This document shows, one piece after another, positions 6,041 through 34,337 of a stretch of DNA of 38,480 bases; the stretch's first letter is position 1; the number at the start of each line of letters is the position of its first letter. The notes beneath the pieces are model-generated. The model saw only the letters and a program-made list of their open reading frames with translations, was not told the origin of the DNA and did not search any database. Location: positions 1 through 38,480 of the forward strand of contig JAFCDN010000012.1 in assembly GCA_017609625.1 (NCBI GenBank), written 5' to 3'. Origin of the DNA: Candidatus Iainarchaeum sp. Lineage in GTDB: Archaea > Iainarchaeota > Iainarchaeia > Iainarchaeales > 1-14-0-10-31-34. The position numbers and the translations under genes were made by a program.

Positions 6041-6110
6041 GTTTTAGGTAAATGCTTTTACCCAAAACTTTTCCAAAAGTTTTATCAAAATGTATGGGAT
6101 AAACCCATAC
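6041..6110. repeat. Three adjacent hairpins, composite element copy 1
   Basis: Hairpin one pairs GTTTT-a-GGTAAA (6041-6052) with TTTACC-c-AAAAC (6057-6068) around TGCT. Hairpin two pairs AAAACTTTT (6064-6072) with AAAAGTTTT (6075-6083) around CC; it shares bases 6064-6068 with the first, so the two exclude each other. After a linker ATCAAAAT, hairpin three pairs GTATGGG (6092-6098) with CCCATAC (6104-6110) around ATAAA. The order CTTTT-CC-AAAAG hairpin, ATCAAAA or ACCAAA linker, seven-base stem with ATAAA loop, recurs at 6379-6427, 6469-6512 and 34286-34337. Confidence 0.8.
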
Positions 6111-6165
6111 TGCCTAACTTTCTTTTCTGTTTTTGCATTACTTTTTCTTTTTTTTGACACAAAAT

Positions 6166-6187
6166 TTTAACGGTTTCGCCCGTTAAA
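6166..6187. repeat. Hairpin with TTTCGC loop
   Basis: TTTAACGG (6166-6173) is perfectly complementary to CCGTTAAA (6180-6187) around the loop TTTCGC. Read on the other strand the loop is GCGAAA, which matches the NCGAAA loops at 6264-6281, 6290-6305, 6541-6558 and 21764-21781. It could also contain a TATA-like element for the tRNA transcript further on. Confidence 0.7.
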
Positions 6188-6191
6188 GACA

Positions 6192-6257
6192 AAGCACTAT
6201 CTTCGCTTTGCTCGATAGAGCTGAGAAGCGGAGCATGCTCGACTGAAAGTCGTGCTT
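6192..6257. other. GC-rich, self-complementary segment, possible structured RNA or leader
   Basis: Outer bases AAGCAC (6192-6197) pair with GTGCTT (6252-6257). Inside are CTATC/GATAG, the perfect ten-base palindrome GAGCATGCTC (6231-6240), and GCTCGAC-TGAAA-GTCGTGC (6237-6255, one mismatch). In an AT-rich archaeal genome, GC-rich intergenic DNA often marks RNA genes. It lies upstream of and in the same direction as tRNA-Pro, so it may be part of a long pre-tRNA leader. No known RNA family is recognised. Confidence 0.35.
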
Positions 6258-6263
6258 AAGTGC

Positions 6264-6305
6264 AACCGCTCGAAAGCGGTTTCGTGCTCAAACGGCGAAA
6301 CGTTT
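6264..6305. repeat. Two NCGAAA-loop hairpins, the second flush with tRNA 5' end
   Basis: AACCGC-TCGAAA-GCGGTT spans 6264-6281 and AAACG-GCGAAA-CGTTT spans 6290-6305. Stems differ but remain complementary, while the six-base loop keeps CGAAA. The second hairpin ends exactly one base before the first base of the tRNA. Confidence 0.78.
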
Positions 6306-6378
6306 GGGGACGTGGTGTAGCTTGGTAGCATTGGTGCTTCGGGGGCATCTGACGGGAGTTCAAATCTCCCCGTTCCCA
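6306..6378 (+). tRNA. tRNA-Pro, anticodon CGG
   Basis: A full cloverleaf is visible. The acceptor GGGGACG (6306-6312) pairs with CGTTCCC (6371-6377) with one G-U pair, and the discriminator is A6378. The anticodon stem GGTGC/GCATC encloses the loop TTCGGGG, giving anticodon CGG, which reads the proline codon CCG. The T arm is GGGAG-TTCAAAT-CTCCC. CCA is not encoded. There is no intron. Hairpins abut both ends directly: 6290-6305 on the 5' side and 6379-6400 on the 3' side. It converges with the PRPP synthetase gene. Confidence 0.95.
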
Positions 6379-6573
6379 TAAACCCTTTCCAAAGGGTTTA
6401 ACCAAAAGTACGGCGTAAAGCCGTACTGTCAAAAGGTGTAACAAAATGCAGGGCATAAAGCCCAGCTGTCTTTCCAAAGAGTTTAACCAAAGGTCCAGCA
6501 TAAAGCTGGACCAGCACGACTTTATGTCGTGCCTCGTACTTAACTGCCGAAACAGTTACGGGATAAACCCGTA
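6379..6573. repeat. Array of conserved-loop hairpins downstream of tRNA-Pro
   Basis: Almost the whole gap to the next gene is hairpins. In order: TAAACCCTTT-CC-AAAGGGTTTA (6379-6400); linker ACCAAA; AGTACGGC-GTAAA-GCCGTACT (6407-6427); GCAGGGC-ATAAA-GCCCAGC with one mismatch (6448-6466); TCTTT-CC-AAAGA (6469-6480); linker GTTTAACCAAA; GGTCCAGC-ATAAA-GCTGGACC (6492-6512); GCACGAC-TTTAT-GTCGTGC (6514-6532); TAACTG-CCGAAA-CAGTTA (6541-6558); TACGGG-ATAAA-CCCGTA (6557-6573). Loops are conserved and stems vary with pairing kept. Confidence 0.85.
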
Positions 6574-21763: not shown

Positions 21764-21875
21764 CAACTGTTTCGGCAGTTGAACAACCGCTCACTCGATT
21801 GACGCGTGTGCACCGCATAAAGCGGTGCTAGCACGACTTTATGTCGTGCCTCGTCACTCGCGGACGGAACCGCGA
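21764..21875. repeat. GC-rich hairpin cluster between glyA and folD
   Basis: By my count 56 of the 95 bases at 21781-21875 are G or C, far above the neighbours. Hairpins: CAACTG-TTTCGG-CAGTTG (21764-21781), GCACCGC-ATAAA-GCGGTGC (21810-21828), GCACGAC-TTTAT-GTCGTGC (21831-21849) and TCGCGG-ACGGAA-CCGCGA (21858-21875), the last ending next to the glyA stop. The 25 bases at 21830-21854 are identical to 6513-6537 near the tRNA. Loops match those of the tRNA cluster. Confidence 0.85.
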
Positions 21876-23105
21876 CTAGTAAATAACAAAGTTTTTGCAC
21901 AATTCTTTTATTTCTTCCTTGACTTTTTTTCGAATGCTTTCGTCTGATTTGTTTTCTATTACTCTGTTAATCCATTCCCCTACTTGTTTCATTTCATCTT
22001 CTTTAAAACCTCTGGAAGTAAGTGCAGGGCTACCTAAACGTATTCCTGAAGGATTAAAAGGGCTTTGAGTGTCAAAAGGAATCATGTTTTTGTTGCAGTA
22101 AATTCCAGATTCATCCAAAATAGTTTCAGCTTCTTTTCCTGGAATATTTTTGTTTGTCAAATCAACTAAAAGCAGGTGGTTGTCTGTCCCTCCAGAAACC
22201 AAGCGAAAGTCAAAGTCCTGCAAAGATTCGCCTAAAGCTTTTGCGTTTTTAATTACCTGTTCTGCATATTTTTTAAAGTCTGGCTTTAATGCTTCTCCAA
22301 AAGCCACTGCTTTTGCTGCATTAATATGGTCATGCGGTCCGCCCTGCAGACAGGGAAAAACTGCTTTATCTATCTTTTGTGCATGCTCTTCTTTGCACAT
22401 TATTATCGCGCCTCTAGGCCCGCGCAGAGTTTTGTGTGTGGTAGTTGAAACAACATCAAAAAACGGAACCGGATTTTCATGGAAGCCGGTGCAACACAAG
22501 CCTGCAATATGTGCTATATCTGCAAAAGATACTGCTTCAATTTCATCTGCAATTTCTTTTAGTTTTTTAAAATCAATTTTTCTTGGATAAGCTGTTGCTC
22601 CTGAAACAATTAGTTTAGGTTTTTCTTTTTGTGCTATTTCTCTGATTTCATCATAATCTATTGTTTCTGTTTCTTTTGACACTCCATAAGGGATTGCATT
22701 ATAATGCATTCCAGAAACGCTTACTTTATGGCCGTGAGTTAAATGGCCCCCCATTGCTAAACTCATTCCCATGAATTTGTCTCCTAAATTCAGAAAAGCA
22801 ATATATACTGCCTGATTGGCAGGACTTCCGGAATATGGTTGCACATTAACATGTTCTGCGTTGAATAATTGTTTTGCTCTTTCTATTGCCAAATCTTCTA
22901 TTATGTCTACAAATTCGTTTCCGCTGTAATATCTTTTATGAGAATATCCTTCGCTGTATTTGTTTGTAAAAACCGAACCCATTGCCTCTAAAACTGCTTT
23001 TGAAACATAATTTTCTGAAGCAATTAATTCTAAGCCTTTATTCTGCCTTTTTGTTTCGTTTTTTATTGCATCTGAAACTGCTGAATCCTGCTTTTCAATA
23101 AACAT
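21876..23105 (-). CDS. glyA: Serine hydroxymethyltransferase
   Basis: GlyA makes glycine and 5,10-methylene-THF from serine and THF. The 409-residue PLP enzyme has [36 protein letters not shown], the PLP lysine at about 225 in [13 protein letters not shown], and a C-terminal domain with [13 protein letters not shown]. It supplies both glycine for PurD and one-carbon units for FolD/PurN/PurH, and is the first gene of that operon. The ribosome binding site is GGGGG at 23113-23117. Confidence 0.97.
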
Positions 23106-33542: not shown

Positions 33543-34295
33543 ATGAAACCTAAAGTGATTGTTTTAAGAACTGCAGGAACAAACTGTGAATATGAAACAA
33601 TTAATGTTTTAGAACAGGTTGGAGCAGAAGTAAAGCTTGCGCATATTAATTCTTTGCTTAGAAAAGAAGTTTTATTGAAAGACTTTCATGCTTTAGTTAT
33701 TCCTGGAGGCTTTGCTGACGGAGATTATATTGCTGCAGGAAAAATTCTTGCAAATAGACTGGCTTTTAATTTAAAAGAAGAAATCAATGAATTCATTGAA
33801 GAAAAAAAATTGATTTTAGGAATCTGCAACGGCTTTCAGGTTTTAGTTAAAGCAGGTTTGCTTCCTCGTATTGAAAATTCATCAGAGCAAACTCTTTCTT
33901 TAATCTGGAATAACTCTGGACACTTTCAGGATCAATGGGTCAGGATTAGAAATATTGGAGCAGAACATTGTGTCTGGACTAAAGGTATTGAATCAATTTA
34001 TTGCCCGATAAACCATGCAGAAGGAAAACTGGTTGCAACAGAACAGGCGCTGGTAAAGTTATATGAAAAAAATCTGATTGCATTTAAATATGATGAAAAT
34101 CCAAATGGTTCAGTTGATTCTATTGCAGGAATCTGTGATGAAACCGGAAGGATTTTTGGTTTAATGCCTCATCCGGAAAAAAACACTTATTCTTTCTGCA
34201 ATCCGCAAAGCACCAGAACAGAATTGTCTTCAGAAGGAGAAGGCGTGCAGCTTTTTAGAAACGGAATTGAATACATCAAAGCAACCTTTTTTTGA
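33543..34295 (+). CDS. purQ: Phosphoribosylformylglycinamidine synthase, PurQ glutaminase subunit
   Basis: PurQ releases ammonia from glutamine for PurL. The 250-residue class I glutaminase has IVLRTAGTNCEYET, VIPGGFADGDYIAAG, the nucleophile Cys in LGICNGFQVL, INHAEGKLV and the His-Glu pair in LMPHPEKNT. Its last codons (Ala-Thr-Phe-Phe) and TGA stop lie inside a hairpin of the composite repeat element at 34286-34302, so the element forms the C-terminus or was inserted across it. Confidence 0.96.
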   Translation: MKPKVIVLRTAGTNCEYETINVLEQVGAEVKLAHINSLLRKEVLLKDFHALVIPGGFADGDYIAAGKILANRLAFNLKEEINEFIEEKKLILGICNGFQVLVKAGLLPRIENSSEQTLSLIWNNSGHFQDQWVRIRNIGAEHCVWTKGIESIYCPINHAEGKLVATEQALVKLYEKNLIAFKYDENPNGSVDSIAGICDETGRIFGLMPHPEKNTYSFCNPQSTRTELSSEGEGVQLFRNGIEYIKATFF

Positions 34296-34337
34296 AAAAA
34301 AGCCTTGACCAAAAAAGGTTTTTGCTAAAGCAAAAAC
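34286..34337. repeat. Composite hairpin element across the purQ stop
   Basis: CTTTTTTT/AAAAAAAG (34286-34302), linker CCTTGACCAAAAAAG, then GTTTTTGC-TAAA-GCAAAAAC (34318-34337). The order and linker match the copies near tRNA-Pro. It may also end the purQ transcript. Confidence 0.65.

Follow-up and report, generated by a model that had tools for sequence, protein, structure and literature searches.

The window analysed here is a stretch of 38,480 nucleotides from Candidatus Iainarchaeum sp. (contig JAFCDN010000012.1, positions 1 to 38,480 of the forward strand). It carries a cluster of hairpins at 6041-6573 and further copies beside two other genes (Table 1). An earlier note, made from the sequence of the window, had described the cluster as a composite of three recurring hairpin types. 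The cluster is real and every hairpin named in that note was found in its place, although the tRNA-Pro (CGG) gene inside the cluster had been missed. In purQ (33543-34295), the stop codon is supplied by the degenerate type-3 head of the module that follows. Hairpins with a stem of at least 7 bp and an RTAAA or TTTAY loop number 6 in the window, versus 0.017 expected from 60 dinucleotide shuffles (maximum 1), and 4 in 6041-6573, versus 0 in 1000 shuffles; shuffled controls, raised in the earlier note as a possible source of equal hairpins, do not give them. The predicted single-strand fold of 6488-6573 (minus strand, as DNA) lies 8 standard deviations below shuffled sequences. In tandem modules downstream of tRNAs (6379-6513 in the window and locus L025), the copy nearest the tRNA is intact and later ones have no head 5' arm, as if new copies had been arriving at the tRNA end.

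Table 1. Modules and associated features in the window. R1 is the covariance model described in the text.
Feature	Positions	Strand	Remarks
Module: type-3 head AAAACTTTTCCAAAAGTTTT-ATCAAAA (6064-6090), hairpin GTATGGG-ATAAA-CCCATAC (6092-6110), TG	6064-6110	+	
Module: type-2 head TTTAACGG-TTTCGC-CCGTTAAA (6166-6187), long hairpin GCACTATC...GATAGAGC (6194-6221), hairpin GCTCGACTGAAAGTCGTGC (6237-6255)	6166-6260	+	R1 match, 36 bits
Antisense type-2 stem-loops: AACCGCTCGAAAGCGGTT (6264-6281), linker TCGTGCT (6282-6288), head CAAACG-GCGAAA-CGTTTG (6289-6306)	6264-6306	-	R1 match 6232-6308; head directly abuts tRNA-Pro 5' end
tRNA-Pro (CGG)	6305-6379	+	ARAGORN; Rfam RF00005; modules directly on both ends
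Module from tRNA-Pro 3' end: type-3 head TAAACCCTTTCCAAAGGGTTTA-ACCAAA (6379-6406), hairpin AGTACGGC-GTAAA-GCCGTACT (6407-6427), TG	6379-6429	+	
Second tandem module, without 5' arm: CAAAAGGTGTAACAAAA, imperfect hairpin GCAGGGCATAAAGCCCAGC, TG	6430-6468	+	Direct reading
Third tandem module: decayed head (CTTTCCAAAGAGTTTAACCAAA), hairpin GGTCCAGC-ATAAA-GCTGGACC (6492-6512)	6470-6513	+	
Inverted module facing 6470-6513: hairpin GCACGAC-ATAAA-GTCGTGC (6514-6532, read on -), linker (6533-6540), type-2 head TAACTG-TTTCGG-CAGTTA (6541-6558)	6514-6558	-	R1 match 6488-6560 on -, 87.1 bits
Further hairpin TACGGG-ATAAA-CCCGTA	6557-6573	+	
Full element: hairpins 21831-21849 and 21810-21828, head TCGCGG-TTCCGT-CCGCGA	21805-21877	-	Best R1 match, 89.1 bits; head begins right after serine hydroxymethyltransferase stop codon
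Separate type-2 stem CAACTG-TTTCGG-CAGTTG	21764-21781	+	Near the copy at 21805-21877
Module: degenerate type-3 head (AACCTTTTTTTGAAAAAAAG...ACCAAAAAA), hairpin GTTTTTGC-TAAA-GCAAAAAC (34318-34337)	34283-34337	+	

Each module consists of a head, a linker ending in ACGAG, a 7-bp hairpin with a 5-nt loop, and T(A/G). Hairpin loops are RTAAA, ACAAG, TTTCA and others; the loop constancy reported earlier holds for the most part, with ACAAG, TTTCA, TGAAA and CTTGT also present. In type-2 heads the loop of the stem pairs with the downstream linker, giving a predicted H-type pseudoknot, while in type-3 heads a stem formed by a T-run and an A-run precedes a further A-run that matches it. Type 1 of the earlier note is the module hairpin, and its type 2 is the pseudoknot head read antisense. 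Its type 3, CTTTT-nn-AAAAG, is a real hairpin that belongs, with a third A-run matched in length, to a second kind of head. In the full form, two modules stand tail to tail (inverted) around a central TA in a near-palindrome of about 95 nt, with the consensus ACGAG-[hairpin]-TA-[hairpin]-CTCGT around the hairpins. At locus L024, for instance, TCGCGG-TTTCGT-CCGCGA-GTGCCGAG-[GCACAGC-GTAAA-GCTGTGC] is followed by TA and then by [GCACGAC-CTTGT-GTCGTGC]-CTCGTGCT-[CAAACG-GCGAAA-CGTTTG]. Many full elements have two dissimilar halves, and some halves recur without change at different loci: L014 and the window copy at 21805-21877 have the first half in common and not the second. At L024:1440-1560, an older head (CAACTGT...ACAGTTG on either side) is apparently interrupted by the full element, that is, a nested insertion in a hairpin loop. 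The composite design first proposed was without this larger architecture of pseudoknot head, hairpin and inverted partner, nor did it include the covariation of loop with linker, the docking or the mirror-triplex relative described below.

The genome that contains the window (1.35 Mb in 70 contigs, 91.7% complete) was searched and sampled by region, and compared with two species of the same genus, G001 and G002 (median amino-acid identity of sampled genes 75% and 71%), and with G003, from a sister genus of the same family (62%). A covariance model, R1, built from 16 copies, gave 94 matches (E<=1) at about 45 sites of the own genome, so the further genomic copies whose absence would have counted against the earlier note are many. 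There were 54 and 51 matches in G001 and G002 and none in G003. Across the phylum, matches at E<=1e-5 were found in this genus, plus sparse ones in three other genera only. The pattern GCACGACTTTATGTCGTGC had 32 matches (up to 3 mismatches, both strands, the palindrome matching itself) versus 0 for a reversed-pattern control, and the exact element core matches the record Candidatus Diapherotrites archaeon CG10_big_fil_rev_8_21_14_0_10_31_34. Type-2 heads with a TTTCG loop and a CGA linker were also seen in other genera of the order (L071 in G014, L072 in G032, L067 in G023), one apparently in a tRNA intron, one beside a tRNA and one possibly within an ORF. Only tRNA and archaeal RNase P matched Rfam 15 at gathering score in the window and 20 loci, by which a known RNA family was rejected, in agreement with the earlier note that no named family has this design. 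In openly accessible papers, we found no description of such repeats in Diapherotrites or DPANN. Judged from their sequences, the modules are an undescribed family of dispersed repeats in Diapherotrites (Iainarchaeota), defined by a predicted fold and not by sequence.

Stem covariation was measured on 113 R1 matches from three species, a set that leans towards the covariance model to which it was aligned. The score was 0.652, versus 0.160 in shuffled and at most 0.088 in slid controls; 95.3% of cells pair, and 20/20 modelled pairs have changed on both sides. The compensatory stem changes noticed earlier, and the selection on secondary structure deduced from them, are both supported. Stems in set A1 and S1 in set A2 had been selected as paired, so that testing them is circular; independent evidence comes from the pairing of loop and linker, from A-run lengths, from the mirror test and from covariance-model set A3, which leans towards the model. 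Among 34 distinct type-2 heads picked regardless of their linker, 30 have bases 3-5 of the loop complementary to bases 5-7 of the linker, versus a mean of 17.6 and a maximum of 24 when linkers were shuffled among heads (10,000 shuffles). Loop and linker change together (TCG/CGA, CCG/CGG, GCT/AGC, GCG/CGC, CTG/CAG, TTA/TAA, CAA/TTG), with both-side changes in all three pairs of a helix that is merely 3-4 bp long. Since this pairing was used by neither search nor model, we take its covariation as the strongest independent sign of the predicted tertiary fold.

In type-3 heads, the T-run of the stem equals the A-run of the linker in length in 40/67 cases, versus 17.9 when shuffled (reached in 0/20,000 shuffles). 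Which base precedes the A-run in the linker depends on the stem pair: A-T goes with T (33 times), C-G goes with A (21 times) and a third C-G pair adds a C (8 times), with 5 exceptions. G003 has longer relatives, made of a pyrimidine arm, a purine arm, a linker of about 12 nt and a second purine strand. This last strand mirrors the purine arm instead of repeating it directly: the mirror alignment was better in 19 cases, the direct one in 2, and 4 were ties (summed score 244 versus 183 shuffled, 0/5000). Copying cannot yield mirror repeats. In the purine-motif triplex, which is known for DNA, a third purine strand lies antiparallel to the purine arm, a geometry that the G003 heads would share. 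These long heads (L139, L143, L146, L167, L215, L216, L218, L220, L226, L227) are found at the 3' ends of tRNAs and within tRNA introns, and they often form arrays in which the pyrimidine arm is missing from later units. The mirror strands would make natural candidates for intramolecular triplexes of the purine motif that selection maintains at tRNA genes.

We considered whether the hairpins might be replication by-products, made or perfected by quasi-palindrome template switching and with neither function nor mobility. Near-perfect Watson-Crick stems would agree with this, as would the upstream copy of the tRNA-Gln 5' part, with its complement, around a module at L100. However, template switching cannot create covarying loop-linker pairing between two helices, nor mirror-image third strands, and it leaves unexplained the loops and linkers common to dozens of loci. 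We regard it as very improbable. Stems, pseudoknot and third strand covary while sequence is free, which points to shape as the thing selected; selection on shape is rare among dispersed DNA repeats.

The modules dock at tRNAs. Perfect hairpins of 6 bp or more that begin within 3 nt of a tRNA end were found for 24/42 tRNAs in the own genome, 17/29 in G001 and 21/33 in G002, versus 4-6% of control positions in these genomes; in G003, whose heads begin a few bases further out than this rule allows, the figure is 3/37. About 40% of tRNAs have no module. Twenty of the 45 model sites lie within 150 bp of a tRNA, versus 0.56 expected. At tRNA 3' ends 40 heads are sense and 7 antisense, and at 5' ends 28 are antisense and 3 sense. 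Heads are thus turned towards the tRNA at either end, which is what DNA insertions would be expected to show. According to ARAGORN, 19/42 tRNA predictions in the own genome have introns, an unusually high number, several longer than 90 nt; in 8 of the 19, such a hairpin stands at the start of the intron, and a full element lies within the intron of tRNA-Thr(TGT). Eleven modules begin no more than 5 nt from a long ORF's stop codon, and the RNase P RNA starts just 3' of another copy (L015). Just upstream of tRNA-Gln, at L100:1340-1481, a type-3 module has on its flanks 16 bp that repeat the 5' part of this tRNA (TAGCCCCGTAGTCTAG) and a piece in reverse complement; tRNA-Glu in G001 (L154, L177) is preceded by similar pieces.

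The main rival to mobility is a cis-acting RNA element at tRNA and mRNA 3' ends and in introns, which would protect, terminate or guide processing by RNase P, tRNase Z or the splicing endonuclease. In its favour are modules placed precisely, and mostly in sense, at the 3' ends of mature tRNAs and behind stop codons, the module in the RNase P RNA 5' flank, the pseudoknot covariation and the partial conservation of module presence between orthologous tRNAs. Nevertheless, such an element would not be expected antisense at tRNA 5' ends (28/31), nor missing from so many tRNAs, and both sequence and kind of module change between species. The mirror third strand of G003 would also suit a DNA purine triplex better than RNA. 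RNA under selection usually has a clear preference for G-U, whereas G-T mispairs are scarcely preferred to A-C here: 37 versus 27 in the model-aligned set, 8 versus 14 in hairpins with RTAAA-like loops taken from sequence only, and 13 versus 4 in type-2 heads, so that the preference is weak or absent. Together with the antisense modules at tRNA 5' ends, this leans towards modules acting at the DNA rather than the RNA level. The earlier note had left open RNA or cruciform structure; with G-T overall about as rare as A-C, the balance tilts, tentatively, to DNA. We consider the cis-acting RNA element unlikely.

Modules at corresponding genes of sister species are usually different or absent. The full element at the serine hydroxymethyltransferase stop codon has no counterpart in G003 or in G002 (83% identical protein), where the gene is located at a contig break. 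Downstream of the PRPP synthetase gene, the own genome has clustered modules and a tRNA, G001 a single type-3 module at the stop codon, and G002 nothing. Orthologous tRNAs can carry different kinds; tRNA-Ser(GCT), for example, has a type-2 module in the own genome, one of type 3 in G001 and none in G002. Presence of a 3'-end module is correlated between orthologous tRNAs, with 15 pairs having it in both, 15 in neither and 14 in one (Fisher p 0.019). Modules are slightly more alike within than between genomes (60/88 with equal numbers; permutation 146/2000, not significant). A first comparison, in which every tRNA module was closest to another from its respective genome (30/30), shrank to this value with equal numbers and is not taken as proof of concerted evolution. 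The weak likeness within genomes and the partly common 3' modules indicate that many copies are old, and covariation in old copies suggests that the fold would be useful after insertion. No target-site duplication was seen at inspected sites, and one 16-bp direct repeat surrounds the tRNA-Gln module in L100.

Functional sites at the DNA level, such as sites for chromatin or replication proteins or cruciform/H-DNA boundaries, could also spread by gene conversion and not by transposition. Both-strand symmetry, the lack of wobble preference, the mirror repeats and the location in spacers would all suit them. However, the same spacers have no module in sister species, and strong docking at tRNAs is unexpected for chromatin sites in general, so we think this explanation quite unlikely.

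As for agents, Y1 transposase (PF01797) had no match in the own genome (91.7% complete) or G001, and 4, partly truncated, in G002. G003 has an IS200-like Y1 element in three copies (L246, L247, L248) of about 670 bp, 92-95% identical, with terminal hairpins of its own. When these copies were aligned, their ends proved unrelated to the module hairpins, so modules do not resemble the ends of this resident IS200/IS605 element. Mobilisation by Y1/RAYT was rejected on both grounds. Reverse transcriptase (PF00078, RVT_1) was absent from the three same-genus genomes that carry the repeats (one match in G003), which led us to reject SINE-like retroposition, and a viral origin was rejected because the core pattern had no match in viral contigs.

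The observed architecture, covariation, dispersal and docking at tRNA ends, introns and stop codons are best read as a structure-defined, non-autonomous mobile repeat family, with fold and mobility both predicted. We hold this to be somewhat probable, in support of the small mobile repeat that the earlier note had listed among its options; the palindromic pairs of unlike halves and the turnover of modules between species also speak for it. No transposase is tied to the modules, and the slight likeness within genomes and the 3' modules partly common to orthologous tRNAs also weigh against it. In such a mobile family, units would move or copy as DNA, and a single-stranded folded form might be recognised by an enzyme or by replication/repair machinery. 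Units would insert beside or within existing hairpins, such as the tRNA acceptor stem or anticodon arm, and would be kept in places from which maturation cuts them out (5' leader, 3' trailer, intron) or in which they are harmless, just after stop codons. A function at RNA ends was possibly retained alongside mobility. How the introns, leaders and trailers of archaeal tRNAs are born is a long-standing question, and modules, if they move, would be one direct way for this to happen. It is tempting to go further and propose, tentatively and with some doubt, a new class of mobile or processing element, recognised only through the tertiary fold of a single strand (a hairpin with a pseudoknot or purine-triplex head) and targeting tRNA-gene ends and anticodon loops. 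Such a class, if true, would have made tRNA introns, leaders and trailers across an entire archaeal lineage.

Known systems offer partial parallels. As in MITEs, the full form has terminal inverted repeats, near-perfect by structure more than by sequence. Rickettsia palindromic elements, palindromes of about 100 nt, are alike by description, and not by sequence, in their size and in entering RNA genes as well; their sequence is conserved, and they often lie in frame within proteins. Archaeal tRNA introns have been gained with an integrating element of 1.8 kb bearing a recombinase (PMC3293823), which likewise links tRNA introns to mobile DNA, whereas here the intron is formed by modules of less than 100 nt. 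The nearest kinds are DHE, sponge RHE and REP/REPIN, each without defining features found here. Fungal mitochondrial double-hairpin elements (DHE; Paquin and Lang) are described, in the available part of PMC10085805, as short, potentially mobile and without a known enzyme. They too have two adjacent hairpins and are dispersed in spacers and also in RNA genes. Sites of the archaeal modules differ when species are compared, a difference that may reflect mobility. Unlike the archaeal modules, conserved only in predicted fold, DHE are GC-rich and mitochondrial, and the DHE descriptions in that part of the source are without a pseudoknot or third-strand head and without tRNA-end docking. The repetitive hairpin-forming elements of sponge mtDNA (PMC2800124) are also dispersed hairpin repeats within spacers, but they keep helices and vary loops, while the archaeal modules have mostly constant loops and varying stems; their authors infer no tertiary contact, whereas the archaeal loop is predicted to contact the linker. 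REP/BIME/REPIN sequences (PMC3733652) are likewise small, extragenic, non-autonomous palindromes in inverted pairs often of unlike halves, and here too the unit is an inverted pair, two modules around TA, many with unlike halves. In contrast to them, the archaeal modules show neither an unpaired GTAG nor an unpaired CGTC tag at the foot of the hairpin and have no RAYT/Y1 in their own genome, and they carry a pseudoknot or triplex head, as predicted, and dock at tRNA ends and introns.
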